DNA from: Trebouxia sp. TZW2008
Taxonomy: Eukaryota; Chlorophyta; Trebouxiophyceae; Trebouxiales; Trebouxiaceae
NCBI GenBank assembly: GCA_002118135.1
Contig: BDIU01000013.1
Coordinates: 186,001-250,000 of the forward strand
Length of the DNA: 64,000 nt
Reading direction: 5' to 3'
Shown here: in pieces, positions 16,188-50,900 of the stretch
Layout of the letters: each line of letters begins with the position of its first letter
Position numbering within the stretch: position 1 is the stretch's first letter
Notes under the pieces: generated by a model
Told to the model about the DNA's origin: nothing
Seen by the model: only the letters and a program-made list of their open reading frames with translations
Databases searched by the model: none
Program-made: the position numbers and the translations under genes

Positions 16188-16598
16188 TTGTAGAAGTGTC
16201 CAGGCCTCTCGCGATGCTTTGTCGCACGCTGCGCACAGCACTGCCGTACACTGATACCTGATCCGTTCGTGCTGAAAGCATTCAGCGTGCCAACAGTCTG
16301 TGTCAACACAAGACACCTTTGTGTAGCAAATTTTGAAAGTTGAGGTGACTAACATTGATAATGTCCCGAGCATCAGGAGTGCGACCAACACCTCACTTTC
16401 GATACGGCGCTGCCCAAACCAGCATGACAGAGCAGGCAAATGACGGATGGGTCAGATGGAATACACATCATTCAACGCAAGTCGATGTCGAGCTGTTTGG
16501 GTGCGTGATCTTCTTGAGCGACTAGATTGTGCAGCATGCAGTGACAACTGCGGCGCAGTCTAGACTTGCTGTGTCTTTGCAGAAACACGCTTCGTCTC
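16188..16598. promoter_or_regulatory. bidirectional promoter region, CAP-D3 / METTL21
   Basis: The two genes start head to head about 410 bp apart, so their promoters must lie or overlap here. The distance is smaller if CAP-D3 starts at 16439 or if the methyltransferase has an earlier 5' exon. I recognise no TATA box or named operator. Confidence 0.45.
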
Positions 16599-17696
16599 AT
16601 GCAAAACCCCAACACTAACCACCTTGGCACCACTGTGTGGGATTCTAGTATCGTGCTGGCTAAATTTCTAGAAAAGGTGAGCTGCAAAGCAGCATACATA
16701 CATTGTGAAGTCACATCATGAGCTACATGAGGGCCAACACATATTCGACTGCAATTTTACTGTGTGTGAAATCAACTGCCAATGCAGAATGCAAAAAAGG
16801 GTGATTTTGCCAGACATAGAGTGAAAGGCAAGCGAGCTATTGAGTTGGGCGCTGGCATGGGTCTTGGTGGTTTTGCCTTTGCATTTCTAGGATGCGACAC
16901 AGTAGTCACAGACACTGCAGAAGTGCTGAGCCTCTTACAGCGTAATTATGAAACAAACTTGTCCCCTGCTGCTCTGAAAGGTAAGCTGACAGGCTGTTTG
17001 GTTGTCACCGTGTCATAAAAAGCAGCTCGGCAGCATAGCTGACAACAACACAAGCTGTAACCAGAGCTCAACGTGCATGTCAGCATGTTCATCAGCAAGC
17101 AACACAAGCTGTGATGTTGCAGGGCAGGAAACTCTCCAGATGGCCGGTCATGTCAAAGTACAAGAACTAGACTGGAGCAATACCAGTCATTATGGGCTAG
17201 TGGGTCCACCTTTTGACTATGTGCTGGCGGCTGACTGTGTGTATCATGAACACATTGTGGAAGATTTCCTGCGCACAGTTCTTGCTATGACACACAGCAA
17301 GTCGACAGGTCAGAGATTCTGCTGATAAGTCCATTTGCTACCATTGGCTCTGCATACTTGCAGCCCTGCCTTCTTGCCTGCACTTGTTGTGCAGTTTGAT
17401 TTGTTAAGCGCAGGTCTCCTTGCATTGTCATAGAATTGCTTGGCTGACAACACCTTTGGCTGCCTGCAGTGGTCGTGGTGAATGAGCTGCGTTCACAGGC
17501 TGTTCATGACCGTTTCACAACACTCTTTGAGCAGCACTTCACTATTAAGCGCACACCACGCAGCAAAATGGACTCTGTGCATCAGCACAGTGCCATTGAT
17601 ATCTTGATTCTCAAAAAACGCAAACAGGCGGATTCAGCACAGCACACAGCATCAGCTCATGCAGAACCTGCCAGCACAGCACAGAACACGCCATAA
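16599..17696 (+). CDS. METTL21-family protein lysine methyltransferase
   Basis: Class I SAM-dependent methyltransferase of the METTL21 group, which methylates lysines on chaperones and translation factors; the substrate here is unknown. Exons 16599-16676, 16788-16980, 17123-17308 and 17470-17696 join in phase. Features in order: NHLGTTVWDSSIVLAKFLEK (family entry motif), the SAM-binding motif I AIELGAGMGLGGFAFAFLGC, acidic TDTAEV, VQELDWSNTSHYG, and the DxxY-region PFDYVLAADCVYHEHIVEDF, then VNELRSQAVHDRF and the lysine-rich end SAIDILILKKRKQ. The plant family has the same GTTVWDAS...KFLEKN layout. Residues before MQNPN probably come from an unseen short 5' exon, because a possible acceptor (CTTTGCAG) lies just upstream. 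The stop is TAA at 17694. Confidence 0.85.
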
Positions 17697-18999
17697 CAGT
17701 TTGACAAAAGCATTGTGTCCAGAGCGGAAGCTGTCTACAAATGATGCGCAACACTGGCATTGCCAATGTCCATAGCAGGTCTGGCAACCTTGAGTTTGTT
17801 TGCTATTGCATGCAGTGCACAGCTTTGGCCTGCAAACGTTAACCCGTTGTGTCTGCAGGCATTGCGCTCAGCCTTCAGCAGTTGTTGTTCAGGAGCCACA
17901 GCCAAAATAATCTGCAAGGTGACCTGCATTGTCATGGCCCCCTCAAAACAAGCAGGATTTTATGGTTTGCGCTCTGTTATCAAAGCGCACATGCAGCTAA
18001 ATGGAGTGCGCCTGTCCGCGCAGGCTGCATCCTCCTGGCTGAAGGGATGTAAGGTGGCGTCTTCATGACAAGGCGGGTATATAAGGAGCAATCAGGCTTG
18101 TTTTTATGTAGCTCAGGGCACTTGCAGGCTCCACTGCGGACTCATGCGCAGCATGCCATTGCTGAAGCTTGGCAATTGAAAAGTTGAGTTGCTGGCTTGC
18201 AAACAAGGCCAGGCTGTTTGGCAGAGCTCAACATATTTGCAACAGCAACGCGGCTGACAATTCGTGTTGCTCATTGAACACGTGTTGCGCTTCAAAATTT
18301 GGCTGAAAATTTGTTCTGTGACTGTGCACAGTACACAACAGGTCTGCAGCAACAACCAACGTGGCTGACAGAATCTCTGTGCCTACTCTCTGTCTGCAAG
18401 CGCTGAAGATGTTTTGCTCAAGGGTCTTTGTGCGTGACCATGAGAGGACAACTAGGTTGACTACAGGACATTGTACAGACATTTCATTAGGACATGCATA
18501 TTACCTGCCAATGCTCAGCAAATTTCTCACACCCTCAAGCACAGGAGTCTCAGATGGCGGGGTTATAGTTACATGTTAGCCTTACATTACCTATAAGTGT
18601 CCTTGATTGATGGAGCTTATTTGCTGGGGCTGCTTCCGATCAGCAACTCATATTCACGCTGAGTGTTGATCTGTGAAACCCTCTTGTGCAAACAAGTGTT
18701 TTCAGATAGCTGATGGCATGCCAGTGTTACCACAGGTGCATTCGACGACAGCTGCGCACCAACACGCATGCTGCAGGAAAAGCAATGTGGCATGGTGCAA
18801 TGCAAAATTGCAAACAGGTGCACAGACAGCTTTGGCATGCATTTGATGCACAGCTCAAATCACAATGACAGGATGAACGAGGACGTCTGTGCGCGGCGGT
18901 CGTGAGCAATGCGGCGCTGTCTGATCTTAAACCAGGCCCATTTGTGGATAGTTGTTGCGCTACTCGCGTCAGTGCTTGCGATTTGAGACTTTCAAAATC
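17697..18999. other. intergenic region with one weak candidate exon
   Basis: No confident gene in 1.3 kb. The only suggestive reading is + strand 17935-18052, starting MAPSKQAGFYGLRSVIKAH and continuing LNGVRLSAQAASSWLKG, then a possible donor GTAAGG. Its spacing resembles the N-terminal helical domain of DNA polymerase epsilon subunit 2, but no downstream exon supports this. The last part is the promoter and 5' UTR of the SMARCAL1-like gene. Confidence 0.4.
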
Positions 19000-21900
19000 A
19001 TGGATGACTTCGACAACACCGATCTTTCTGCTCTCTTTGCGGAGGTAGATCAGCTCGAGGCGAGAAGCAAAGCGCCAGAGCCAAATCGCCAGGTGAATCC
19101 TATTCTGCAAAGAATGCCAGCTCTCGCCTGCACGAACGCTTGGCGGCTTGCGTTAGAGGAGGAGCTTCCTACAGAAACCTTCAGCTGTGCGACTGGCAAA
19201 CTTTGATGGTGAGGTTTGCTGTATACGCAGGATCCGCCAATTGGTCCAGGAGCTCATGAATCTCACCTGCACAGGACCGCGCCACAGGTGGTCAACACAA
19301 TGGCAGCTCCAACTCCACAGGCTCCTACTGTGCACACAGGCCCAGCACCATCTTTCACACCCAGAAGCAGAGAAGAAATCAGGAGGCTGTTCACAAAACG
19401 CTCCGCACCTGTGCCAGCAAGTTCAAAGCAGCCCCGAGCAATGTTGCAGCGTGAGCCACTGCCACCAAGCCGTTTGCAGCAGCAGACAGCACTGCCAAGT
19501 GCATCCTCACACCAGCAGCCACATTGTGCAGCTCAGCAGCCCAGTAGTCTGAACAGTGCTCAGCAGGTACAGCATGCAGCAGCTGCTCAGGTGCCTGGCA
19601 TACAGGCTCCACAGTCTTTTCAGCAGTATGCTTACCCCGGAGGCGCACAGCCAGCCACCAGCAATCAACGGTCCCACAGTGGATCAGGGCAGAGTCAGCC
19701 GCGGTCAGGTCAAGCAGCTTCTCAACAGCAAAGCACATCAATGCAGCGCAAGTCAGCTGCTGCCAGTAGTGCGCCAGGCGGTCCAGCTAGAACCAGTGTG
19801 AGCTCAGCTTCAAGCATATCAATGAGAGCAGAGGTTTTGATGGGGCCGGACGGAACTGTAGAAGTCAACGTGCGGTTTCATGACAACATTGCCAATGCGC
19901 TGAAGAAGTGAGTTTCCAAGCTTCAGACAATCAAGCCTTGTAAAGTCTGTCCCATGCCGATGCATGGTCCTGTCTGGGGCTGGTGTGACATTTGCTCAAT
20001 GCCATCTTTGCATCAGCTCTGCCAAGACATATGCATTGGTACAGCAGCAACCTTGAGTGGTCCTGCTGTTGCACAGGCTGAAGGGTGCTGAGTGGATAGC
20101 CAACAAGGGGCTATGGCGTATGCCTATGTCACAGTATGGGCCTTTGATGAAAGCTCTACCTGCTGTTCCTGGTGTGAATCTGACCATTGAGCCCTTGCCT
20201 CCAGTTGCACAAGCCCTAGTGCAGGTGCAGTGATGATGCTGTTCACTTTGATGCCATTGGCAGTTGCACTGACACAGAGCAGTAGCTTCTGCAGTCACAT
20301 TACAACTTTTGCACCATGCTACAAACAAAACACCACCGCAGTGATGCCATCAATGTGGCATCAATGCAGCAACAAGATCAATGCAGTAACATTGCAAAGG
20401 AATGTCATGCACTCTGGACGCTGATCATGTGATTGGTTACAGGGTGCAGCAGTGAAGCACCATATGTAACACTCAAGACACAACAAACAACATGCCAGTT
20501 TCTCACAGTTTGAATGACTGGGATGCAGTGTATGTTGTGGAGTTCACACTATGCTGGCGCCAACTTGTAACCGACACTATGCAGGTCTCCACTACGGGAA
20601 TGGAAAGTATGGTGATTTGATGCTGTGCAGGTTGCCAATGCAGCTGAGGACGACAGCGAGTTGTACAGCAAGATGCCAGCAAAGCTGCAAGAGAAGCTGA
20701 TGGGCTTTCAAAGGCAGGGCATCCAGTTTGCACTAAAGCGCGGAGGCAGGCTGCTGGTGGGAGATGAAATGGGACTTGGCAAGACTGTGCAGGCTATTGG
20801 CCTGATGGCATGCTACAAGGATGAGTGGCCGTGTATCATCATCACCCCATCTTCCCTGAGAGGCAAAACTTCTTCTGTCCAGTTTGAGGCATAACAGCTG
20901 CATGTGCTCTGAGTGACATCACAGATTGTGCCAGCAAACCAAGCATATCAACATTGACCATGCTGTCAAATCTCATCGTGCATGGTGTGATAGCATCAAA
21001 CCAGGCAGATAGCTTTCTGCCCAATGGCAGCTCCACTGGCTGAGGCCGTGATGCTGATTCAGACGCTGCTACCAAGGCTCAAGAAGTATGGCATGCTAGC
21101 ATTAGGCTAGGCAATTAGCTCTGTTTTCCAATGCAGCTGACATGCCTGAACTTTGCATTGCAATTGCAGAGCAATGGGCAGATGCTTTGTATCAGTGGTT
21201 GGGAATCACAGACGACCATGTCCACATGGTCAGCAAGGGCAAGGACTGTCAACTGGAAGGCAAGAAGTTTCAGTTCCTGATCACCAGCTACAACTTTGTC
21301 CCCAAGCTGAAAGACCAGCTGCAGATCTTGGATCCCCAGGTTGTGGTTCTTGATGAGGCTCACTACATCAAAGCCAGCAAGGTTAGCACCTGATTGTCCT
21401 GATGCTTGCAGCTGCTGCTTGCGCAGCTTTGAAGAGCCTCAGCACATCAATGCTGCACTTGAGTCAAGGTTGGCTGCAAATTCAAGCTGCCCCAATCAGC
21501 TTGCATTGTGTGTGCTGCATGCAGAAACAGGCGTGAAATCATGCACATGACTGTACAAATACAAGTGCGTCCTGTGACTGACAAAACTTTGGCGTTTGAT
21601 CCTGTGCAAGTGACCTACCTAACAACACAACTACTGGTAATTTGTTGCATATGTGTTCAAGGACAGGTGCAAAACAATCAGCCACAGTTGAGTGCTGGCT
21701 TGCAGAGTGTACGCAATCAGGTGACGCTCTCCCTGCTGAACGTTGCCAAGAGGGTGGCACTGTTGACAGGCACAGGATCAGAACAAACAGCTCATGCAAT
21801 CCTTGCCTGCTTGCAGAGTGTACGCACTCAGGAGACTGTGCCCCTGCTGAAGGCTGCCAAGAGGGTGGTGCTGCTGACAGGCACCCCAGCACTGTCAAGG

Positions 21901-29727: not shown

Positions 29728-32700
29728 ATGGGGAAAGCTAAGTCTGTTCCAGATCTTGTTTCCAAGCCTATGGCGTCATGGACTGGTGACGATGTGAAGC
29801 AGTGGCTGAAAGAGCATGAATCTCTGAACAAGTATACCAAGTTGCTCAAGGTGTGTATCGCTCTGTCCTTCATGTTGCGTGGGCCTTTACTGGTGGAAGC
29901 TTGCAGACTGAATTATCTACATGCACGCTACAGGGAACCACTGGCAAGGATCTTGTCAAGTTGTCAGAGGAAATTTTGGCTCAGATTGGCATCAAAAACC
30001 CCTTGCACAGAATGCAGCTCATCAATACAAGGGATGACCTCTTAGTACAGCAGGAGCAGGCCAATGCATCTTCATCCCCATCGCAGTTGACACCCTCTCC
30101 TAGCAGTGGCACAGTGCCATATACTGCAACCCCATCAACTAGCAAGCCGTCATCACCCTCACCATCTTTCATTGCACCTATGCACTCGCCCAAGGTGATT
30201 TCTTTAGCCTTTCCAGAATCTGTTTTGCCTCTTGATGTCCATTTTCTTCTCTGTATTGCTCATTTGGCAGTGCCTCATGCAACTGTGCATATACCATTGC
30301 CAGGATACAGACGTCCTGCTGTCACACGCTTTTGATGCCCCATATGCCACATGCTCTTGCTGCTGCAGCATAGCCTTGATAAGCAGTGGAGCACATGTAG
30401 CTGGTGTGCCAAGCCATTCTATACAGGTGTATTGAGAAGATTCAGACCTGCATCTCTAAACGGTGACTTATGCAGGGGAAGGGTCCGATTCTGCTGCAAA
30501 GCTTTTCCAGAAGCCAATTCTCTGGAAGTGGTGTGTCTAGCAGCAGTACCTTCAGCTTTGGCGACTCTCTGAGGCCACCCAAGGAGACCAACATGGTCAT
30601 TCTGGATGATGATGGTCTCTTGCTGGTGCGTCACTGCTAACATGTCTACCGCCAATCTGCTTTGGCCACGCACTTCACATTTTGGTCAGCATCAGATCAG
30701 AAACATACATGCCATTTGGCAGGAGAACTCAAACCTTGCAGGTGTATGTTGCAGCGCCAATCCCCTGTGTGCACAGGAATTGATGACTGTAGCGCTGCCC
30801 ATGTTGGCGCAAATCTTCATACTGGCTCATTCAGCATTGAGTTGTCTGCATGCAGGTTCCCATGAAGGGTGTGCAAGGCAAGGCGTGCAGCCTGGTGGAG
30901 GTTGTCACTGAAGCATATGGGTAAGCTCAGTTCCCCAAACGTTTCACACAGTATGAGCTTGCACAGTCAGGCTGTTCAGCACCTTGGACACCGCAACATG
31001 CAGCTGTGGCAGGGCACAATGCTATGCCTGAAGCTCTGGTTCAAGCATGTTGGCTGTGATATGATTATTATCAAGAATAAAGCAACGCATTGCTCACTGT
31101 TTGTTGGCACACAGTAATTACAATGCGAGCAGAGATGTGTCAAGAGCATTACCACAAACTGAGCATTAAAGTCAGAAAGAAGTCATTGACCATCTCGCCA
31201 TGAGACTGTCTGACACATTGAGTGGGCATATGCACAGTTGATGCAGTAGGAAGTCAGGCATCCCTTGATTGCTGCCTAGCTACACCCTTTTGCCTTGATG
31301 AAGCTGACACCTCTTGGTCGGCAGAATGCTGCTGTCGCCCTGAATTATTCTGTAAGGAAGCACGCAGCGGCAATCGTTTGAACCTGAAATGGTATGATCA
31401 GCTGGCATCTGTATCAGCCAATATCTCAGAAAGGATTTAGCTGCATATGACAGACATCTTGGCAGAGATGCCAGCAACAGGCCCACACAGCTCGACTTGC
31501 AGCAGCAAATACAAGCAGTGGCAGAGGAACGGCAAACTGGGCCACTTGACTGCCAGCGCAGTTTATCAGATGTAGCAAGACAGCGAGGCTGCAGGTCTGA
31601 ATACACCTTTACCTGAGCTCAAGCTGAAAGGACTCTTCAGCTCAACTCAAGCTAAGCATAGTTTACAGAAACTGTAAACTATGCTTAGCTTTGAAATATG
31701 CAGTACACCAACAGCAGAATGACTCAAGAGCACAAACGCAGACATGCTACTGCAGAGCTGGCACAAGTTTTGCCTGAAAATGCGCAGCTGCAGCTGCATA
31801 GCATGCAACAGGCAGAGGCAGACATCAAGCACACTGCTCAACTGAGAACGTTCTGCCCTGACCAGACGCACAGCTGCATTGTCACTTTAGCAAGTCACCA
31901 GCAAATGCTTGCAGATCAAATTGTGCAGAAGACATGCAAGTATGCAGCAACACAGCAGTCAGCACTTTGCATGGCTGCTGAGCAGCAACCACAATCAGCC
32001 GGGGGTGAGCGCCAGCATACCAAACCTACCCATCTCTTCTTGTGTTGCTATTCAACAGCCCTTGCCCAGGGAATCAGCTCTCTCTGACTCGTGCATCAAA
32101 CCAGATTGAATGCAAAGCAAGCTCAGCAGGACCCAGATACATCAGTTTCTGCATCTCATGCTGCAGCACTGGCCGAACAGTCAGCAAAGCACGGCTCACA
32201 ATGGTGTCAGATGCAGATATATCAAGATCCACTCAGCTCACCAGCTGAGGCACATAAATGCTTGCCATTTGTGTATGGCACAAGGCATCAACAAATGGCG
32301 CAGTCAGCCAGGCTGTTGTGGTGATGCAGGCTATGGCGACAGGCATACTACAATGCCAACAACTGTGAAGCCCTAGTGAGCTGTGCAGCAGAGCTACAGG
32401 GGCTCATCTTGGCCAACAGCAGCCTGGCAGCCCGCCCCACTCTCATGGCCAACCTGCTGGAGGCCGTCACCGAGGTCAAGGAGTTTGTTGCCACGTTCTC
32501 AGAAAGGTCTGCCGGCCAATCACTTCTACAGCAGTCTAGGCATTGCCTTTTCCCTTGCAAGCCTCAAAACGGGCGCTGATGTGTTTGGCAAAGCTGCCTG
32601 GGAGGTCTTGTTTGTCATGACAGCCAGCCAAAGCTGCTGCATGCCATACTGACATTACACATCTGGCAAGCTGCAGCTCATAAGTTTGTGGCATGTTTGT

Positions 32701-35700
32701 AGGGGCTGGTTGTCTAGGCTAGAGCGGGTGAGCAGTGACAAGGAGGAGTTCTGCCGTCTGGACAGGCTGCTGATTTCCATTGCTGCAGAGGGCGGCAACC
32801 AGCCTGGACCTGAACAGGTATGTGTCTGCCATACATGCATTTGCAATCACTGCAACAGGATCATTGGTGCCATATGCTGCACTCCTTGCTTTGCGCTGAC
32901 ATACAATGGCATTGATATACTCAGTGCACGGCTTTATGACTGAAGCATGATTCACATAGCCTGTTGCTGACTACCCTATACTTGCATGGGTTTGGTTCTC
33001 TTCACCTGTGAATTGCCTCCCACCCCACGCTGTGGTGGCACATGAGCACACAGAAAGCACATCTTAGAAAGCACATCTGAATTCAAGCAATGCATATGCC
33101 CTAACACAGGTCAATAGCCTGCTTGCCAACTGTCCTGGGTCTGACTGCATTTTGATAACCTATACTTGTACTGAAAGCAAAGCACTCTGGTGGTCATGCA
33201 GGAGCACAACAAGTCAACTGCTGACTGTCCCACATGGGAACAGTCTGTGCTTGAGCCAGCTGTTTACAATAGTGAAGGTGAACTTGATTCTGGCGGTGCA
33301 GGAGTTTACAGATTATATGCCAGACCCGAGCCAGGCACTTGATCAGCTAATCTTGTCTTGAAAAGCTGTGTTGTGATGATGCAGGAGTACACAGATGACA
33401 CAGCAGACCTGAGGCGGGCACTGGATGGGCTGGGTGGCATGGCGGCCCTCACAGACCCTGACATGCAGCTCAAGGCCTTGCCAGAGCTTGAACAATATGT
33501 ATCAGCGGTATGCTCAAGATTGCTGCTTTGCCTGACACAGCCAACGCATGCATGTTGCACAGGCAGTGTGCGACCGCACGCCCAGCCAGTCTGACTGCAT
33601 GATTGCATGCTGGTACAACGCAATGCTGCTGCGCTGCTTTGGGTAACAGGTTCTGCTGCCAGGAGTTGGCACCCAAATTGGGGGTGCATGATGTCACCAC
33701 AATACATGGCCATAAGCTGCGTCAAGCCCAATGCCACAATGTTGTCTGCAGAAATCTTCTGCTGATGTGCTCAATGGCCAGAAGGATAATTTTCATCTCG
33801 CTCTCAGGTACAGTCGCCCAACAGGCCCTGTGCTGATGATGTGCTGAGCCAAAGTCCACAAAGTCACACACAATATGGCACTGAGCTGCGCATAAACACA
33901 TGGCCTGTGGTGATTTGTCGCAAATCTACCCAAGCGTGCTCGACATTGCTGTTGAGTGCAGCGTGCAAGGGCAGTGTTGGCCAGCCTGGTGGCTCGTGAG
34001 GTAGCCTGGCGAGAGGCCAGCCTGCAGACAGGTCCCCACCAAGTCATTCGCAACCCTGAGGTGCGCCTGTGGTGGTGGAAGAGCTTTGGCTCAGCCCTGC
34101 TGCAGACGTATGGCAGCCTGGGCACTGAGGAAATCACCTGGGAGCGCTTCTGGAGCAAGTTCCCCAAAGGCTTGGAAGAGTGAGCTTCTGCGCAAGCTTT
34201 CTTTGTGCTTGAGACAGTTGCATTTCACAGGGGTTAACAAGTGTCCTTGCAATGACCATACACAAAAGCATACAAAAGCTGCATATGTTGAGCATCTGCT
34301 CTGCTTGTTGCACATCAACAAGATAGTGCTGCGATGTGCCAAGCATTGCAGCAGGTTTTGAGCAGATTCCCTGGACTGCTTGCTTGCACAAAAGATACTT
34401 CATACTGCCCAGCAGGTTCTATTCAGTGTCCAACGTTGCGCAGGCAGACAAGACAAGAGTGCTCAATGGCATATGGCATTGAATACATGTACCGCTGCGG
34501 CAGTGTCTCATCGTTTTGACAGAACTATCCAGCAGCGTCCAGGAGGCCATTGCTTTGGGCAATCCTGTGCCTTGCTTATACACCCCAATGACAAGGATTA
34601 AATCTGATACTGTTTGCATGTGCAGTGAGGCAGCAGCCAGTGTCGCTCAGGTAGTGTACAACAAGCACACCAGGGAGGCCTTCCAGGCCGCCATCAGCCG
34701 CGGCAACCCCAATTTGATCACCCCTGTGGAGCTGGATTTCAGCCTGCCCCGCAATGCTCCCCTTGCGCAGCAGTGCAGCGTCCTGCTCAACTGGGAGAAC
34801 AGCTACAAAACTCTCTCCAGGTGCGCTGCTGCTATGTGCCACTTGCCTCAAATGTGATCACTAGCAGTACAGATTTGCCGGCTGCCACTGTTTGACATCA
34901 CACACTATATTCAGTGTTCAGCGTCAGACAGCATACTGTGAGCCCACAGTGTAGCTAAGACAGATGCAGTTTGCGCATTCTAGGAACCAATGACATCCGA
35001 CTGTGGTCAGGAGTGTCACCTGCATGTCACTGCTTCTGCACGCATAGAGCAAGTGCTCAGGAGCGCTTCTCTAGATCCTAGATTATCACAGCATGAACTG
35101 CTGTCACACATGCACCTTGGGAAACCATCACTTCATCAGGCCATGCCTAGTCTCATGTGCAATACATGCAAGTGCACCCATATTGCATGTCATTTTGCTG
35201 CATACATGTGAAAGCTGACAAGTCTGCGCGGCTAGACCTTCTGGGACTTCTGCTACAGGAGTGCTGGCAGGCTGGGGTCAGGGACTCGCAGCACAGGGTC
35301 CACTCTAGGGGCAACAGAGGAGTACAAGCCGGTGGTGAACACCCTGCCTGAGGTGACGCAGCTGCTGCTGGGGCAGGAGCGGCACTGCCAGGGCCTGCTG
35401 GATGTGCTGCAGCCCGACCAGGGCCAGCCACCGCAGGTTGTCTCCCTCTGCGGCGCCCCTGGAGCAGGTACTTATACTGTTCTCAGGCTGTCTTCACCTC
35501 TTTTCCATATGCCTGTATACATGAAAATTTACAATTCGCTGTATGTGGGGACCATGAGGTGCACATGCCTTTGCCCTTGCTCTTGCCCATGTCCTGATGA
35601 CGATGCTGGTGATGACAGTTGTTTTGGTGATGATATTGCTTGTGAGGACACTGTGGTCTCCCAGCTATTACCAGGGCAGGTGCCTCAGCTCTTGCCTTTG

Positions 35701-38700
35701 CTCTTGTTGTGTGGTAGCAGGCTGATTGAAGTTCACTGGGCGTAGTTGGTGCTTGCTTCCTGACGTGTGCTGCCTGCCGGTATGTGTACACTTTAGCCTG
35801 ACCAGGGCCAGCTGCCACAAGTTGTGTATCTCTGTGGTGCCCCTGGAGCAGGTGCCTTGCCCTTGTCCCAGCTCATGCCCTTGCCCACAAACTTGTCCTT
35901 GCCTTTGCCCTTATGTGTATGTTCTCGCTTGTGCTGCTGTGCCCGCACTTGTTCTTGCGCTTCCCCTTGCCCATGTCTGTGTCCTTGCCCACAACCTCCG
36001 CCCTGAATCATGTTGCCTGCTTTAATGAGAGGGCGTGCAAGAAGCTGGTGCTAATCAATTGCTGACAAGCTTCTTATGTGCAGGCAAGGTGAACATAGCT
36101 GTGATAGCAGCCGAGACCTTGTTCAGCAGCTGCTTGTGGTGCAACGCCTTCTTTGCAGATATGGAGAGGGTAGAGACTGGTGTTGAATGCGCCTTTCAGC
36201 TCATGGCGGCCTTTGCTGTAACAGCTGACACCTCAGACACCTGCACCCTCATGGCATGGCTGGCCAAGTGGGCGGCTATGCCCATGGGTCTCATCGTGCA
36301 CTGCCCATCAGACATGACGGCCCGCCTCCACAAGCATGTCATACACAATGTGGAGAAGATGATCAAGGCAAGTCTAGCCTGGAACAAAATGCAGTGCAAA
36401 GTATGAAACGACATTGGCCTGGCAGTTGAGAACCCATGTATGAGCAGCTAGTCATGATCTGAATCTGGCCTTCCAAGGATGAGCGTGAGATTTGCATCAG
36501 CTTGCAACGCTATCAATAGCAACATGCTGATACCCCATCCTAGGCAATCCAGCTCTGGCTACACACATCTGCTACATATTGATGATTTCGCCGGCCTTCA
36601 CAGCGCCCCACGGCCTGTTGCCACCTTGTAAGCAGCAAAACAAGGAGTACAGCACAATCACTGACCAGCGGTTGCAGGACACATTGCGTGCTGCACACAG
36701 TAGATCTGCGCTCTCTGTTGATGCTGTCAACTACTTGACTGATGAGGCTGCTACTGCCATAACATGTTGTGACACACCTTGTTGCAGGCTTCGCCACAAA
36801 TGCAAGTTGTGCTGTGTGCCACTGACCCCATTGAGGTCCCAGGAGTGGAGTGTGTGACATATGAGCTTGAGGACCTAGGTGTGGAAAACGTGGCTCAGAT
36901 TCTGACCAGCATTGTGCCTCAGGTAGATGCTCTGCCCAGCACCAACATGACTGGCTTGCATTCTCTGCAACACTCCTCATCTTGTGCCTCTGGTGTTGCA
37001 ATGACTGTGTCATCAGGCATTGCAAGTCATGCTTGACGGCAAATGGCATGGTCCAGATAGATCCCTGTATGCAGCTAGTCCTGCTAAAATGCTCAGCATA
37101 CAAAGCTGTGCTTCAGCAGGCTTGAAGGCGACAGGTGCTTGCATTTGCCATTCCTGCAACATTCACATAAAAGACTGTGGCTGCTGCTCTCCTGAAGAAG
37201 CAAAACCCGCTCCTCCTTTCCCTTCCATTCTCAGAACTCAACTATAACTGCTGTTGCTTCAACGACTGACAGAACATTCTGAAGTAAACTATCTTATCTC
37301 TGCGCAGATTGGTGACAGAGCTGTTGAGCTAGCAGAGGCATGTGGGGGCCGGCCTCTGGCTGCTCACATGGTGGGGAGTGCTTTGGCCAGTGGCACTGCT
37401 CAAATGGAGGAGGTCCTGGTTGCTGTAGCCTCTCCAGCTGTGGCCCACCTGCAGCCCCTGGACAGGTCTGTCACTGAGTCTGATATGTTTTTCCACCCTG
37501 ATTCTGCCTGCTGTCAGTTTCCCCTATCAGCTTTTGGGCCAACATCATGATTGCTATAAACAACTGCCTCACAGCAGCAGTGTTTACTTGTGGGTTCGGT
37601 GTTGATCTTGCCTTTCTGAATCTTCCCTTGTGCTTCTGTTCCCAAATCCTTGTCTTTGTTGATGTCCACGTCCATCATAGCACACGCCAGCCTTACCCAG
37701 TTTGCAGCACCTGTCCCTTTGTTCCTGAACATGCTCTTGACTGCTGTGCTTGAAGCTCTTTGAGCGGCGTAACAGCATTGTGATATGCTGTACAGGTGCA
37801 TCCGCTTCATAGTGAGCACCTTACCAGATGAGTTCCTGCACGCATTGCTGCTGCTCTCAGTCTTTCCTGGGTCCTTTGAGCGGCGAGCAGCAGCAGAGCT
37901 GCTGGGCATGACCAGCATTGCACTGTCCAAGACACGCAGCCTGCTACGCATCCTGGCCACCTGCAACCTGCTGCAGTACAGCAGCACCTCAGAGCGCTAC
38001 ATCATGCACGCCTCTGTCAGAGCCTGCTGCAGAAGCCTGGCTCAAGAGCTGGGACTCACCCATGAGTCTGCCAGGTAATACTGCTGACTATGTCCCTTGT
38101 CAAACTGGTTGCACCTGATCTGCAGCCTGCCTGAAGCTCCACCAACTTTTTGGTGCTGGTAGCAGCCACATTTGGTGGCCTGTTAATCTTGTTGGCCAGT
38201 TGCACCAACCTGTGCACCACTGAGTTGCTGATCCATGGTAGCTAGCTGCAAGTTGCATCATTAGTACTGCTCAACGCCGCTTGAGGAAGTCTGCACTGAA
38301 TCTGCTGCATTCCTATGGTGCAGAGTGACATTCATAGAGTACTACACCAAGTACCTGGCAAAGGCTGCAGCGCTGCTTGCAGCTCAAGCACCAGTGTCAG
38401 CCATGCGCCTCTTTGATCGTGAGCACCAGAACATCCACGAGATTGTGCAGTGGGCCTCATCGATGCCGCCTGAGGAGGCCCTGCCCTTCTACAGTGACAT
38501 CTTGTGGGACTCCATGCCACTGCTGAGTGGCAGGCTGGACCTAATGCAAAGAGAAGTCTTCTGCAAGGTCTGCTTGCTCTGCTGCTGCACAAACAAGAGC
38601 AATCGATGTTGTGTCAACAAGCCCTGAGAAGTTGCTGAGTGGCAGGCCGCACCTCATGTAACCAGAGGTCTTTTGCAAGGTCTGCTTGCTCTGCTGCTGC

Positions 38701-41700
38701 ATGCTTTGTCTGCTGCACAAACAGCTTGGATAGATGCTGCAATGGTCTTTGGACAAACGCTGAGCAGCACGCTGGACCAAATGCAGAGAGAAGTCTTCTG
38801 CAAGGTCTGCTTGCTCTGCTGCTGCACGAATGACTGCACCGGCAAGGAGGTTGTGTCAAACCCTGAGCAAATACTGAGCAGCATGCAGGGTCTCATGCTG
38901 AAACAAGGCTTCTGTCACTTTGCCCTGCATGCCTTTGTATAAGCTCCTTGCTCTGTTGTCCTGCTGATTATGGCTGCATAGGACTCATGTCACATAACAG
39001 GTGTGCTGTACTTGTTGGGGGCTGTGCAAAAGCTTCAATCAGCTGTGCGATTTGGTGGGGGGTATAAGAATGGCGACACTGCATTTGAAGCTTCTCTCAA
39101 CAAGATGACTGCTTTTCAAACAGCACTCCTGGCCCGATGCAGGCAGTGCATGATCAAGCAAAAGAACAGCCAGACTGCATCTCGTCAATCACGCTGAATC
39201 TCATGGTGTTCACTGCAAGATGATAGCTCAGCGATCTGCTGTCTAATTGTTGAACAGCTCAGCAAGATGTTGTTCCATCGCTCAAGGGCTCAGCAAGATG
39301 CTGTGCCATTGTGCAGTAGCTCAGCACAATGCTTTTTGACTGTTCAGTGGCTCAGCAAGATGCTGTCTAATTGCTTCATGGCTCAACAAAGTGCTGGGTG
39401 CAGGCAGTGTATCAGCAAGCAGTGGAGCAGAAGGACAGGGTGGCGCAGGGCAGGGCCCTTTGGCAGCTGGGCAGCGTGCTGGGAGACCAGGGCCAGTTCA
39501 AGAATGCAGAAGTGCCCTTGCGGGATGCCCTTGCCATTCTGGAGGCTGAACTGGGCAGTGACCATCTGGACATTGCCAAAGCCTGCAATGGTACGCCAAA
39601 TTGCTTTTGCTTGAGAAAGAAAAAGGAGGAAGCCTCTGCTGATAGGCATCATAAGACGTGAATAGAAGCAGCTCTGTTGCTGAAGTCAATACAAAGCAGC
39701 AGTGGAAAGATTTATAGCTGTCCATGTTGTTGTGCCGTCTCAGAAAATGCAATTTGGGCACTCAATTTATGCTGCATGATTGGAAACAGGCTGTGACAGC
39801 GCTGCCTAACCCATATACACCTGTTGCAGCACTGACTGCTGTTCAGTAAAGTGCAACAAAGGTCTCATTGACCTGCCAAGCATGGATCCTGCCAGTCTGT
39901 GCCGTGAGTTCAAGGCAATGACACTACTGCCCCCTGCCCTCAGGTCTTGTGATTTGATTGCAGGTCTGGCAGTGGTGTTGTTTCGGCTGCATCAGTACCA
40001 GGGGGCACAGGACCTGTATGCCCGGGCGTATGACATACAGAGTAGCAAGCTGGGCCCTGAGGACAAGGAGGTGGCCACCACCATGAACAACACAGCTGGC
40101 TTGCTGAAGGCCATGGGCAAGCTGGCTGATGCTGAGATAGTGTACCGCACGGCAAGTCACTCTTGCGTACATCTGGCTCAGTTGATTGGTGCTGGGGTGG
40201 CGCGTGGCAGGGAAGCTGCAATGACCTAGACTTCAGACTGCACTGCTGTACTGCTAAAAGTATAGTTTTGAGCACAAGTATAATCAAGTGCCCTAGGCAT
40301 AGGTATGGGAGCTTTCTGCGGGCCGTCTGGTAATGGCATGCCTTGACAGCAGCAAGGCTCATACTGCATCATGCGATGTTTTGAATCCAGGTGCATGGTC
40401 TTGCACTGGACAAAGTCCCAGTGAGGGGCAAACAGAGTGTAAGCCTTACTTCTGATTTTTGGCTTGACGCAGGTGTTAGACATCCGTGAGAAGGAGCTAG
40501 GCCCTGACCATGTGGATGTGGCCGCCAGCCTGAACAACATAGCAGTCCTGCTGAAGACCAGTGGGCAGTTTGAGGAAGCTGAGGAGATGTACAACCGCAG
40601 CATTGCCATCAAGGAGAATGCCCTGGGGCCAAACCATCCACAGGTTTGCAGCAGGACTGTGCAGATGCAGCCTTGATGCCTTCCCTGCATTTCAGGAGGC
40701 ATTTGCCCAACAGCAGCAAACACCTGTGCATAGTCCAACTCAGCTATGCATGACCACACCAGAGATGCATACTTGATCAATGGTCCTTTGGGACACCATT
40801 CAGGAGTTGGCAGCTCTTGACCAAACCATGCACCCAAGCTGCATTTATGGCAGCATTCACCTGAGTGGCATGGAGTCTGTTGCACCTTGCAACCCAGAAT
40901 CACTGCTGCAGAGCATAATCTACTTGCCCTTGCTTTGCCAGGTGGCGCTGTCCTTGAACAACTTGGCAGCACTCTTGAGGAAGATGAGCAAGGGCGAGCA
41001 GGCTGAGAAGCTGTACATGCGCTCCCTGTCCATACGGGAGGAGGCACTGGGCCCTGACCACCCCCAGGTGGGTCACAACCACCCCTTTCACTGTGCCTCA
41101 GCCATGTTTGCATACCTTTCCTCATCTTTCCTCTGCTGCCTGATGCATTTGCTCATCCCTATGCTTGACCCTTTCGGTGCCACGTGTCTGATCTTGCAAG
41201 ATGCTGGGACTGTAGCTGCTGTTCATTGCCTGTCAGGCAAACTTATCATGTCTTGACTTGGCAACGCTTGCCATAGCATGACCAAAACTTATGCTTGTTT
41301 GGTCGGCAGCTGGCAGTGTCATTTTAGCAGGTCTGCTGAAGTCAGAAACCAGCTGATGAAGACCCTGCCCTACATCAACAAGGCAAGCGTCCTTGTATTG
41401 AGATACTGCTGAAGTCAGAAAACCGGCTAATGCAGGCCATGCCCTACTTCAACAAGGCGAGCGTCCTCATGTTGAGATACTGCTGTACAGCTAGTGCCAA
41501 GATGGTGTGTGCAGGTGGCAGCTAGCTATGTCTACCTGGCAGGTCTGCTGAAGTCAGAAGACCGGCTGATGAAGCCCTGTTTTGCTCCCACAAGGCAAGC
41601 GTCCTCATATTGAGACAACTACTGTATAGCTAATGCTGGATTGGTGTGTGTAGGTGGCGGCTAGCTATGTCAACCTGGCAGGTCTGCTGAAGTCAGAGAA

Positions 41701-44331
41701 CCGGCTGATGGAGGCCCTGCCCTACTTCAACAAGGCCCTGGACATCAGGGAGCGCGCTTATGGCCCTGACCACCCAGACGTCTCAGCAGCGCAGATCTCC
41801 CTGGCTGAACTGCTTAAGGACCTGGGCAAGTAAGCCTCAAACCATTCTCAAACTCATGTCCCTCAAGTAGAGCCCATCTTACTCCACTTCACTTGAGTCC
41901 GCTTCCCGTCACTTCACTTGGCTACCTTTCAGAAGAACATGCACATTGCTAATCTGTGGCAACGCTGCACCTGTGACCTCGCAAAGCTATCACATGGTAT
42001 GTGTCACTTCAACTGATGTGCTGCCATGCTGAGTCTTGTCACACCTTGACAAATAGTCTTCTTGAGTGATGCTTGTACTAAGCAAGGCTTGCCCCCGACA
42101 TGGTCACAGTCACATCACAAAATGCAGGTGAAGATTTTGAACAAACTGTGATGTTTCCATGCTCTGTCATCAAATTGCCGATGTTAGGAAGAGCATTGAC
42201 GGGCTGTTTGTTGCAGGTTTGAGGAGGCTGAAAGGCTGTGCAGGAGCGCTATCAACATCCTGGAGAAGTCTGTCGGCGAGGCTGATGTCAATGTGGCAGC
42301 TGCACTGTCTCTACAGGCCACTTGCCTTCAGTAAGTGCAACTTTGATGCAGCTGAACTTGATGCCAATAGGAAATTTGCACCTTTGGGCACGACCAATGC
42401 AGAAAGCTGATGCATGCACTAAGACTTATCTTGATTTGGCTGGAACAGATACAACATGTCCTGGAAGCATCATCCTGTTGTTACGCCTGATAGCAGAGCT
42501 GTGCTCGCCCGTGAAGTTTGCAATGTGCGGAGCGGAATTGAGCCTGGATGGGCAACACCAGGAAGGTGGAAGAGCGCTGCATCAGCTTGTTGCTTGAAAT
42601 GCAGCTCATCCCAGTATGTGATGTGCAGGGGCCTTGGCAAGGCCAACGAGGCAGAGCCACTGTGCAGGCGGGCACTGCAGATTAGGGAGGGCACCTATGG
42701 TGCTGATAGCCCAAATGCAGCGACAGCTCTGACAGCCTTGGCAGACGTCCTCAAAGACATGAGCAGGTCTGGCAGCTTGCATGCTTGCTCCTGTGTTGGC
42801 CTGCATGCCTCTTGCTGTCAGACTGCTTCTGTTTGTGCTTTCAGCGTACAAGAATTCACTCTTCAGTTTTGTTTGGAGTGAGTATTTGACAACGACCCTT
42901 TCATCTTGAAGTCCTGAGCGCTCTTCTGCATGCACTGCCTGCATTAATGATAACAAAGTCACCCTGGACATGAATGCAAAGGAGGTTTAACCCACATGCA
43001 AACAGCAAGCAAATTGATACAGTGGCTCTGATCATCAACCTGTGTGCAGCTTTGCGGAGGCAGAGGTGCTAGCAAGGCGCAGTCTTTCCATCAGAGAAAG
43101 GGCGTTTGGGTCTGATGACCCCTTGACAGCCACCAGCCTCAACAACCTGGCGCTGCTGCTCAAAGATGCCAATCAACTAGTGGAGGCTGAAACCATGTGC
43201 CGCAAGTGCATAGACATCAGGTACACATAGACTTGCTGCTGCATCAATGTTGTCCATGGTGCTGCCACACAAAAGCATGTGAATTCACGTCCATCAGATT
43301 TCAGTTTACGACCGCAGTCTTGATACATTGTCCTCTGCAGTGACATCCATTGGAAATGGTGACTGATCTGCCGCGGGAATGAGCTGACATGAGGCATCTA
43401 CACCAGCCTACACATCATTTTGCCACCAAGCTGATGCTCATGACCTGGGTTGTTACGCATCACCTGAGTGTAGCTCACCTCTGTTCACATGCATGGTCAG
43501 AAGGACGCAGCCTGGCAAGCATAGACCTGCTTCACATGCACCCAGCTTGTGTTGTACTGCGTCTCAGCAGAACATAAAATGACGCTTTGTAGGTAGCAGT
43601 TGCTTGGGAAGAACAGCCTAGTAAAACAAAAACTTGGTGCAGCTGGCTTTTGCTGAAGTGCATCTCAGCAGATCACAGGACTGGGCTGCACAACTCCTAG
43701 CATGTAGGAGAGCATATGTAACCACTAGTGTCATCATTCTCACATCATATGGTGATGATATGTAGGCAGCGGGTGCTAGGAGAGGACAGCCTGGAGGTGG
43801 CCTCCACCTGGCTGAACCTGGGGTCAGTGCTGCGGGCTGCGGGCAAGCTGGAGGAGGCAGAGGGAGCTTGCCGCCAGTGCCTTGACATCCGGGAACACCA
43901 GCTCGGGCCCCAGCACTCTGACACAGCTGCTGCCCAAATAGGTAGGGTGTGCATCACAGCTGCTGCACAAACAAATGCATCATGTAGGGATGGTCACAAG
44001 CATGCTGCATGTTGATGCAGAAGAGCAAGGTGTATAGCCAGTTGCTGCATGTGCATGCAACTGATCGGCCGGATGCTGTTTGTATAGTCTATGCAAAGTT
44101 TGTAGTCATGTGCGGCAGCATGCGCCGCATGCACTGACCTAGTCTTGCGCGGTATGTTTTGCAGGTATAGGAGCTGTCCTGCTCAAGCAAGGACGGGTGG
44201 ACGAAGCCAAGAACATTTTGTCCAAGGCTGCTACCTTGACGTTTGTCAAGCTTGGGGAGCGGCATCAGCAGTCCTTGGATGCCATGAACTGGCTTGCAGA
44301 ATGCAAAAGCACTCAGCGGAATATGACATGA
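29728..44331 (+). CDS. NLR-like STAND protein: SAM - four-helix bundle - NB-ARC - WHD - TPR
   Basis: About 26 exons, ~1466 aa. Residues: SAM 15-70 (SWTGDDVKQWLKEHESLNKY, DLVKLSEEILAQIGI); Ser/Thr linker; helical bundle 179-297 resembling MLKL/MCAfunc bundles (ANNCEALVSCAAELQGLIL, LEAVTEVKEFVATFSER, GWLSRLERVSSDKEEFCRL); W/F-rich segment ~370-460 (VRLWWWKSFG, EITWERFWSKF); NB-ARC from ~476 with P-loop GAPGAGKVNIA, Walker B HLLHIDDFAGL, VVLCATDPIEVPG and GGRPLAAHMVGSAL; winged helix with MHD-like YIMHASVR; then about ten kinesin-light-chain-type TPRs from ~940 (SLNNIAVLLK, SIREEALGPDHPQ, SLNNLALLLK), ending STQRNMT. NLR-type STAND proteins switch on ADP/ATP exchange and oligomerise; that role here is inferred. 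P-loop Thr/Ser is Val and MHD Asp is Ala. Introns after exons at 36367 and 40151 appear to be GC-AG. Splicing around the Walker B exon (36501-36788) is not settled; all other junctions close in frame. Confidence 0.85.
31649..31691. repeat. perfect 20-bp inverted repeat with 3-nt loop
   Basis: Arm AAGCTAAGCATAGTTTACAG at 31649-31668, loop AAA, and the exact reverse complement at 31672-31691. It lies in the long intron between 30920 and 32330 of the NLR-like gene. Its design matches the hairpin at 12497. Confidence 0.92.
33296..33355 (+). pseudogene. decayed upstream copy of an NLR-like exon start
   Basis: GTGCAGGAGTTTACAGAT copies ATGCAGGAGTACACAGAT at the true exon start (33385), and GGCACTTGATCAGCT copies GGCACTGGATGGGCT. 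The acceptor is kept. The two starts are 84 bp apart. Confidence 0.75.
35800..35862 (+). pseudogene. downstream copy of the P-loop exon end with its donor
   Basis: CTGACCAGGGCCAGCTGCCA...GGTGCCCCTGGAGCAG|GTGCC copies CCGACCAGGGCCAGCCACCG...GGCGCCCCTGGAGCAG|GTACTT at 35413-35467. The copy therefore repeats the GAPGA codons and a possible 5' splice site. The surrounding intron (35560-36005) is rich in CTTGCC-like repeats. Confidence 0.8.
38523..38905 (+). repeat. tandem copies of an NLR-like exon end with splice donors
   Basis: The exon end reads LSGRLDLMQREVFCK|GTCTGC (donor at 38568). Copies start near 38634, 38758 and 38874, about 110-124 bp apart. The first two keep TGCAAG|GTCTGCTTGCTCTGC; the last is decayed. 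The second copy has ATGTAA in place of ATGCAA, an in-frame stop. Confidence 0.85.
39220..39400. repeat. short-period tandem repeat before a TPR exon
   Basis: GGCTCAGCAAGATGCTGT and variants recur about five times at 33-70 bp spacing up to the acceptor of the exon at 39404. A decayed copy of that exon's start (GATGCAGGCAGTGCATGATC) lies upstream at about 39136. Confidence 0.65.
41325..41653 (+). pseudogene. three decayed upstream copies of a TPR exon
   Basis: The true exon (41654-41829) reads GLLKSENRLMEALPYFNKAL. Partial copies of GGTCTGCTGAAGTCAGAAA...CTGATG...CCCTGCCCTAC...AACAAGG lie at about 41330, 41406 and 41542. The third also repeats the acceptor context TGTGTGTGCAGGTGGCAGCT. All end at AACAAGG or CACAAGG followed by CAAGC or CGAGC. 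Frames are broken. Confidence 0.82.
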
Positions 44332-47988: not shown

Positions 47989-50900
47989 ATGCCAGGCCGG
48001 ATCAAAGTACTGAACGTCGCTGAGAAGCCGAGTGTCGCTCGAGAGGTGTCGGCCTGTCTCAGTGGCGGGAATTCAAGGCGTCAGCCCTCTGGGTACAGTA
48101 TTCTGTACTTTGCCAAACGCCTCAATATACTCCCTGCTGGCTATACAAGTGGCTTTGCGTTCACCGCAGCCGACAGCAAAACCATGTTTTTGACTACACC
48201 ATCAATGGCCAGAACTGCGAGATGGTGTTTGCTGCTGTGGTCGGGCATCTGCAAGCCCTCGAATTCGCAGAAGGTTTCAAGAAGTGGCATAGCTGTTCCC
48301 CAGGGGATCTGTATACAGCACCTGTCCACAAGTTTGTTCCAGAGGTGAGCATCATCAATCATACTTCATCACACCCTCAAGAGGCACTGCAGCACATTGC
48401 AGTACAAGCTGCACCTTGATTGCGTGCTCGCTACGCTGTGCCTTGGTGCATTTGACGCTACAGGCATACAGGGCCATGTCAGACTTGGAAATGGCATTGA
48501 ACAGCACATACAGCTTGGCTTCAGCTGCATAGCAGCACAGGCCTGCACAGGTCTGCACGTGGATAGGATTTAGATTGCTGTCTGCTGCAGGACAAGAAGG
48601 ACCTTCAAAGAAATCTGGAACAGCTAGCCAGGCAAAGCGATTGGCTTGTATTATGGCTGGATTGTGATAGGGAGGGAGAAAACATAGCTTTTGAGGTCAG
48701 TGTTAGCAAGCTGCAGAACAAGTTGCTGGTGTTTGTCACCAGTCTATTCAGCAGTGTACCATGCTCTTGCAACCTACACAACACATGCAGTATCGTGAAA
48801 TGCAATGGCTCTGCATTTGCATGGATCATGTGCATTTGCATGGTTGATGTGCAGGTGATTGATGTTTGCAAGAGAGTGAGGCCCAGGCTGGTTGTCAAAA
48901 GAGCCCGATTTTCCGCCCTGATTGCACGCGATCTGCACCATGCTGTCAATAATCTAGTGGAACCCAATGAGAACGACTCAAAAGCCGTTGATGCCAGGCA
49001 AGAGATTGATTTGCGCATCGGCGCATCATTCACCCGGCTACAAACCCTATTGCTGCAGGTGTGGCTTGCAGTGTATGCTTGTGTCTGGTGTCACACATTT
49101 AGCTGCTTGATTTGCTCAGATACATACGCAACACGATCTCCTTAATTTCTTCAGTCTAGTCAGTCTATTTCAACTGCAGGATCATTTTGAGTGGCAAGCT
49201 GTCATACCTGAGGGTGAACGGACACTGTTGAGCTATGGACCCTGTCAGTTTCCGACTCTTGGCCTCATTGTTCAGAGAGCATGGTAATCAAAATAGCTTT
49301 GATCGACGTCATTCACATGATTGGCGCCTTGACTGTGTGCCGCAATGCCTAAGTCCGTTAATGTCTAATTGTGGCACTGCCTGCATGCAACAACGTCTGC
49401 ATGCGTAAGCAAGCAGTCAGTTGTATCAGGCTAACGTGATCCTCTCATCTGCCTCATGTAGCAAGTGGTGACTGTGTGAGCCTCATGTAGCAAGCGTATC
49501 AGGCTAAATTTGTCCTCTCATCAGCCTCATGTGATGATAGCTTGCAACATGTGTCATGGGCAATTGCCAGCTTGGGTGCCTGTTCTGCAAAATGATTCCA
49601 GTATAGTTAATCGAAGTTTAATTGCTGGTCTTCCTGTATTTTTGTACGACTGAATTCATCACAAACAATTCTATGTTCTGATCCCGCTTGTTTGGCAGGG
49701 AGATCCAAGGACATGTTCCAGAGGACTTTTGGCACATCCAGGTGACTCATACAGGTGAGGACGGCAAGAGGTGTGACTTCAGCTGGGATAGAGGCAGACT
49801 TTTTGACCACACTGCTGCCACCATACTGTATGAGATGTGTGTGGAGGAGCCAGTGGCAACAGTCACTAAGGTGTGTAATCTCATCAGCAGCTTCAAGCAA
49901 TCATTTGCCTCCAATCTATCATTTGCTGTGTCTTTTGCTGTTACACACGCCTGGCCCCAAAACCACCTGCACAACACTCTCTTGCCGGACTTATGCAAAT
50001 GTATATGCAACCTTGCAATTCCTTTCATGCCTTGCTGTTTGACCTCAAAGACAGCTGGCAAATGCTGTCATTGATGGATCATATCGCGTCTCTGCAACAA
50101 CAACTTTGCATCCTGCGCCTGCGGCGAGCGTGTGTCAAAGCCTGCAAAGTTGGGTGCAGCTGGTGCATGAAAGAGTTTTGACACCTGCAAATTTGTCTTA
50201 TTGTGGCCCTTACAATACAGGTGCAGGGTAAAGAAAAGAAGCGGTTTCCACCACTGCCTTTGAGCACCCTAGAAATGCAGAAGAAGGCAACTCAGTCCTT
50301 GTCCATGCCTGGAGAGCGTATCATGAAGTATGCAGAGGAGCTGTACCAAGCTGGTTTCATCAGCTACCCTCGGACAGAAACAGACAGCTTCCCTCCTGGC
50401 ATGGACCTCATGGTACCTTCACACCAACCCACATACAATCTCTAAATTCCTGCTCATCACAGTCGGAGCAGCGTGTGACAGACTTCTCTTTGCTGTTGAT
50501 GTTGCAGCATAATGCCCAGTCCCTCATGGCAGCAAGGCTGTCCTAGATCCTGCTGATGCCAGCAAAAGTTTATGGCAAACTACTGCTAGTCTTCTGGGCA
50601 ACCTGGCCATCATCCACACACTGCACAGTGCCTGCTGCATGCTCTGTCAGCATGACAGTCCAAAGTCTCAGATCTTGCATTTGGCATTGCCTGATGCCCA
50701 ATCCCTGCTCATGCAGTTGGGCTTTCTCTGCTGTTGGGAAGAAACAACAATCTGCATGACTGTGGACAAAATTGTAACCATTGCTAGCATGAGCAGCTCA
50801 AGGACGCCAGCATGCGCCTGCCTGATGTAATTGACTGGAAAGCTGGTGATTTGACTCAACCAGCAGGTTTCGACCCTTCCTGCTGCATCGCTTCACCAAT

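Follow-up and report, generated by a model that had tools for sequence, protein, structure and literature searches.

Within the window, a 64,000-nucleotide stretch of the genome of Trebouxia sp. TZW2008, positions 29728 to 44331 of the forward strand hold a single coding gene of 25 exons and 24 introns that runs from ATG to TGA without internal stops and encodes 1449 amino acids. Exon joins were set by eye from splice sites and phases. The initial model comprised 26 exons and 1461 amino acids; the ortholog of Trebouxia sp. C0005 lacks one of these exons and uses two other acceptors, which led to the 25-exon model. Phases are consistent across this model. Of its introns 22 are GT-AG; the two that follow exons 11 and 17 have GC donors and are GC-AG. 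The encoded protein consists, in order, of a SAM domain, a helical region, an EF-hand-pair-like domain, an NB-ARC-like core with winged helix, a spacer and 12 TPRs. Residues 179, 297 and 476, which had served as domain limits in the first-pass annotation, fall on exon edges.

29728..44331, + strand: whole coding region, 25 exons, 1449 aa
29776..30041, + strand: SAM domain, residues 17-77, exons 1-2 (Pfam SAM_2, 7.1e-07)
30042..30625, + strand: linker, residues 78-178, exons 2-3, Ser/Thr/Pro/Gly-rich, the least conserved part
30856..32817, + strand: helical region, residues 179-297, exons 4-6 (sub-threshold MLKL_N; predicted helix pattern)
34031..34800, + strand: EF-hand-pair-like domain, residues 362-469, exons 8-9 (nearest fold Cbl TKB)
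35259..36922, + strand: NB part of the NB-ARC-like core, exons 10-12 (placed by motifs)
35452..36091, + strand: Walker A place GAPGAGKV, residues 541-548, split between exons 10 and 11 (motif position)
36287..36313, + strand: Walker B place GLIVHCPSD, residues 614-622, without an acid at the Walker B position
37347..37361, + strand: GRPLA (GxP motif), residues 699-703
38004..38012, + strand: MHD-like motif, here MHA, residues 808-810
38324..38567, + strand: helical spacer that separates the winged helix from the TPRs, about residues 832-912, exon 15 (exon limits)
39404..44331, + strand: twelve TPRs, residues 929-1432, exons 16-25 (TPR_10, 5.9e-103; repeat spacing)

Two orthologs were identified among the 7991 and 7995 candidates scored from a collection of 5.77 billion proteins. 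WJX79_009990 of Trebouxia sp. C0005, a hypothetical protein, is 89% identical to the window protein, and WJX72_011692 of [Myrmecia] bisecta, also a member of Trebouxiaceae, is 52% identical. Each is annotated as a single protein, and the whole-length alignment to them, together with the consistent phases of the 25 exons, upholds the earlier claim of one gene with a continuous frame. Chance does not account for the gene, as its spliced product can be aligned from end to end with a protein annotated in another Trebouxia. Annotation of the Trebouxia and Myrmecia genomes used RNA-seq hints, according to the accessible text of PMC11126685, and we infer that both orthologs stem from that study. The joins of our model were made by eye and introns of the gene contain decayed partial exon copies, as might be expected if two genes had been wrongly fused or the locus were a relic; yet this explanation is very improbable in the face of full-length alignment to annotated proteins from two genera, consistent phases and a frame free of stops. 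The Myrmecia annotation (WJX72_011692) appears to lack the exon between the P-loop and RNBS-B, perhaps through a gene-model error.

Several further observations were made at the locus. The intron segment 38634-38830 holds two decayed partial tandem copies of the end of exon 15 (83% and 92%), 35795-35853 a decayed copy of the P-loop end of exon 10 (83%), and 41296-41615 several decayed copies of parts of TPR exon 20. A ghost of exon 7 was seen by eye at about 33301-33357, and a 31-base tandem repeat occupies 39224-39396 in the intron preceding exon 16. The N-termini of the two Trebouxia proteins (MGKAKS/MGKSKS; 29728-29745) resemble the N-myristoylation pattern known from protein N-termini; that of Myrmecia, MGVAAE, does not. 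Two of the 10 other frames tested in the window matched a family: a condensin-type frame at 7666-8124 (Cnd1, 3e-08) and a Toprim frame at 48567-49142 (2.4e-05).

The genome itself (68,541,624 bases in 527 contigs, the window lying on contig C13) was searched for related genes. Of 15 rows, 14 fell inside the window's gene, 11 of them with E <1e-16; the three weaker ones trace to exon 4, to the P-loop copy in an intron and to the exon that the final model leaves out. The remaining row (32%, E 1.8e-06) revealed a divergent paralog on contig C258, whose pieces, at about 5607-19903, are arranged as in the window protein between helical region and TPR; those noted are 24-44% identical. The segment of the paralog equivalent to the P-loop, placed by eye, reads ESQAGDA, although a better exon could be missing, and a MAFFT alignment did not put this piece at the P-loop. 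In the translations, an extended tract of tandem repeats could be made out by eye within a paralog intron at about 9700-11150 of C258. A second search with the front part of the paralog returned only C258 and the window's gene. The NLR-like order of parts recurs in an ortholog from another genus and in a divergent paralog. An exon-wise NB-ARC search of the same genome, which has low sensitivity, gave five rows, all below the cut-off and the best at E 0.016; no plain canonical NLR was thus seen there. A further TPR_10 locus over the cut-off lies at C129:296665-296790, with no NB-ARC-like match nearby.

The window protein was scanned with Pfam using the first, 1461-aa model, and 22 families were listed at E <= 1. 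The proposed SAM motif is well founded, with both SAM_2 (E 7.1e-07, 29.7 bits against a cut-off of 20.5) and SAM_1 (E 1e-06, 29.4 bits against 23) above threshold. PDB matches to this domain include ETV6, Shank2, liprins and tir-1, some of which cluster or polymerise. A linker follows in which Ser, Thr, Pro and Gly make up 53% of residues 81-178. The helical segment proposed for residues 179-297 took an h1-h2-h3-short-h4 pattern in two models, both of low confidence (pLDDT 34-49 over that part). Scanned alone, the helical regions of all three orthologs gave MLKL_N as the sole Pfam family listed (E 0.0058 for C0005, 0.0082 for the window and, over profile positions 11-101 of 142, 0.13 for Myrmecia), the best score of 16.6 bits lying under the 27-bit cut-off. 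The Myrmecia match is fragile, since a slightly different cut of its helical region gave no family, and MLKL_N was not listed for the helical region of the C258 paralog. Over its whole length the C0005 protein showed a Pfam pattern like that of the window protein, with NB-ARC and MLKL_N under cut-off, and the Myrmecia protein showed SAM and TPR, with NB-ARC and MLKL_N absent at E <= 1. The label "MLKL-like" therefore survives as a hint in three orthologs, sub-threshold in each and unmatched in the paralog. MLKL, HeLo and RPW8 four-helix bundles share with the predicted helix pattern of the window protein a short helix ahead of the last long one; in contrast to them, its helical region is not N-terminal, its fold is predicted with low confidence and MLKL_N stays below cut-off. 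Resistosome or MLKL executioners have a strongly hydrophobic or cationic first helix. The first helix of the window protein's helical region is neither, and with a highest 19-residue Kyte-Doolittle mean of 1.53 no strongly hydrophobic helix is present.

Residues 362-469 form a domain absent from the first-pass annotation, predicted by structure modelling and fold search to be an EF-hand pair with the Cbl TKB region as its nearest fold. Pfam and PDB sequence searches returned no hit to Cbl, and unlike Cbl the window protein has no SH2 or RING domain, nor any catalytic domain, listed in whole-protein Pfam scans (E <= 1).

Downstream of this domain, Pfam NB-ARC scored below its 23.5-bit cut-off, with 17.8 bits (E 0.0021) for the core piece and 14 bits for the whole protein. 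A core profile built from three sequences and run against the PDB gave 13 rows at E <= 10. It matched 9h2l, an NB-ARC domain-containing protein, over the GxP-to-MHD segment (E 0.0011) and, more weakly, NRC1 (6s2p, 0.23) and an RPW8-domain protein (8zf0, 0.42); its P-loop end matched SRP receptor chains (0.017-0.06). The assignment to NB-ARC thus rests mainly on the GxP-to-MHD half of the sequence. In an 802-aa structural model (mean pLDDT 46, pTM 0.28) the NB part was unformed, and neither of the predictions (mean pLDDT 46 and 51) formed a confident four-helix bundle or NB-ARC fold.

The motifs of this core are partly degenerate. In place of the Walker A pattern GxxxxGK[S/T], both Trebouxia proteins read GAPGAGKV, so that the P-loop noted earlier keeps its lysine and lacks the following Ser/Thr; Myrmecia reads GDTGVGK as far as the lysine. 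Nucleotide binding is possible, since the Walker A lysine is common to all three orthologs. The Walker B assignment could not be sustained: its place reads GLIVHCP[S/P]D in the two Trebouxia, with no Asp or Glu where the acid is expected, a loss seen only within these two close sequences because the Myrmecia annotation skips that exon. No Arg occupies the RNBS-B place. The proposed GRPLA lies at residues 699-703 (GxP motif GRPLA/GWPIL), and the winged helix and MHD-like segment are present, the latter retaining Met-His and having lost its Asp to Ala in both Trebouxia (MHA) and to Gln in Myrmecia (MHQ). The GxP proline and the MHD histidine are retained in all three orthologs. The two Trebouxia agree at both places (GAPGAGKV and LIVHCP[S/P]), so that the changes in the switch motifs are, judged from these sequences, inherited and not fresh decay.

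The C-terminal array, given before as about ten TPRs, numbers twelve (residues 929-1432), with 42-aa spacing in 11 of 11 intervals; TPR_10 matched with E 5.9e-103, many TPR families were over cut-off, and no LRR family occurred among the 22 Pfam families listed at E <= 1. Identity in the TPRs is 501/528 (95%) to C0005 and 317/528 (60%) to Myrmecia, and in the NB part 137/164 (84%) and 25/84 (30%). The corresponding values elsewhere are 80/61% for the N-terminus with SAM, 67/35% for the linker, 92/53% for the helical region, 80/42% for the second linker, 88/45% for the EF-hand-like domain, 85/26% for the third linker, 90/37% for ARC1, 94/57% for the winged helix and 94/59% for the spacer. Gapped positions were excluded from these identities: for C0005, 15/98 in the linker; for Myrmecia, 4/80 in the N-terminus, 21/98 in the linker, 12/108 in the EF-hand-like domain, 11/34 in the third linker, 80/164 in the NB part and 1/93 in the winged helix. 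Conservation of the TPRs is not unique, as the winged helix and spacer (94%) and the helical region (92%) are close to it in C0005 and the SAM part (61%) equals it in Myrmecia. A pathogen sensor is expected to vary most in its repeats. The comparison with one close and one distant ortholog hints that the TPRs are instead among the least variable parts of this protein.

NB-ARC-TPR proteins of the bacterial FxSxx-system, of fungi, of brown algae and of Ulva (UM014_0006.1) likewise have an NB-ARC-derived core followed by a TPR array, and the window protein appears to have this architecture with a degenerate core. NCBIfam FxSxx_TPR matched residues 915-1224 of the C0005 ortholog (E 5.3e-69; 233.6 bits, under the cut-off of 300). 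Set against the descriptions of these proteins, the window protein differs in its sub-threshold NB-ARC match and degenerate catalytic motifs and in the SAM, helical and EF-hand-like parts added in front. The available text of earlier studies describes an NB-ARC with TPR in Ulva (PMC8891106), NB-ARC-TPR genes with exon shuffling in brown algae (PMC10197012), TPR-bearing NLRs in bacteria and fungi (PMC9815663, PMC10197012) and a SAM family among fungal NLR N-termini (PMC9815663); two streptophyte algae are covered by PMC11218826. Within the accessible text of the literature searched, we found no protein that joins a SAM domain and a helical region to a Cbl-like EF-hand pair, a degenerate NB-ARC and TPRs. 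Plant CC-NLRs and RPW8-NLRs are akin through the core-profile matches given above, but the window protein has TPRs and not LRRs, carries a SAM and an EF-hand-like domain, and lacks the Walker B acid at its place.

An NLR-like order of helical part, NB-ARC-derived core and repeats is thus borne out by the 9h2l match and by its recurrence in ortholog and paralog. Several features weaken the accompanying proposal of a sensor whose effector acts on membranes or in cell death: the Walker B acid and the Walker A Ser/Thr are missing, the helical region does not begin until residue 179, a strongly hydrophobic helix is lacking, and the TPRs are among the most conserved parts. In a working immune or cell-death receptor of the NLR type, the TPRs would sense non-self or damage, ADP would be exchanged for ATP, a ring would form and the helical bundle would act at membranes as in MLKL, HeLo and CC-NLRs. 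Domain order, the plant NLR matches, sub-threshold MLKL_N in three orthologs and the retained lysine, proline and histidine speak for such a receptor, but we consider it unlikely, given the features just named and the finding of two such genes in the genome and not a variable family.

The same degenerate motifs and conserved TPRs, together with the Cbl-like EF-hand pair and with flanking genes of housekeeping type, judged from the two frames with a family match, would also suit a constitutive TPR adaptor with no switch. Partners, perhaps of trafficking or of Cbl-TKB-like ubiquitin signalling, would then be bound by each of the SAM domain, the helical region, the EF-hand pair and the TPRs, and the NB-ARC-like part would be no more than a spacer fold. 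A plain spacer, however, would have no need of the GxP proline and MHD histidine, and an SH2, RING or catalytic domain is not listed; we regard this adaptor as rather unlikely.

We tentatively favor a third reading, that the protein is a degenerate descendant of NB-ARC-TPR (STAND-type) proteins that has kept their domain order and may serve as a scaffold not needing ATP hydrolysis. Kept signs of the fold and lost signs of hydrolysis together fit a STAND scaffold of this kind. Since the nucleotide switch has lost key residues and the sensor repeats change little, a role as a scaffold in signalling seems likelier than one in sensing pathogens, and a first helix that is neither strongly hydrophobic nor cationic, in a region starting at residue 179, makes a partner-gated scaffold preferable to a membrane killer. 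The intact 25-exon frame, orthologs in two genera, the PDB neighbors of the SAM domain, the likeness of the EF-hand pair to Cbl TKB, the retained GxP proline and MHD histidine, the failure of the low-sensitivity exon-wise search to turn up a plain canonical NLR and the paralog's ESQAGDA, with its by-eye placement, are in favor of such a scaffold; the non-unique conservation of the TPRs, the retained Walker A lysine, a Walker B loss known within Trebouxia only, the unformed NB fold in the 802-aa model and the MAFFT placement of ESQAGDA away from the P-loop count against it. The twelve-TPR superhelix would bind a conserved partner of the cell itself, while the block of NB-ARC-like part, winged helix and spacer would act as a clamp for which ATP hydrolysis is not required. 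Partner binding would release the N-terminal part with its SAM domain, helical region and Cbl-like EF-hand pair, which could then cluster via SAM and recruit client proteins.

A bolder reading, which we hold to be doubtful, is that of a green-algal receptor-like family in which the binding of a ligand to the TPRs would suffice to drive assembly through SAM, making the protein a nucleotide-independent NLR-like switch. A Cbl-type module of helical bundle and EF-hand, known from animal and choanoflagellate ubiquitin ligases, would here be fused to a STAND core without ATP hydrolysis, and MLKL-type and Cbl-type bundles would be linked.

Few descriptions exist of NLR-like proteins from chlorophyte algae. 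The gene studied here, from a genus of lichen algae, is conserved and low-copy and combines an unusual front end with a degenerate switch. [Myrmecia] bisecta is classed as non-symbiotic in the accessible text of PMC11126685, and its ortholog suggests that the gene is not lichen-specific. With this gene one can ask whether proteins of the STAND type are able to function when ATP is not hydrolysed, and whether the green lineage possesses an EF-hand module of the Cbl type. Should the protein prove to be merely a TPR adaptor, it would serve as a warning that an NLR-like domain order in algae need not mean immunity.
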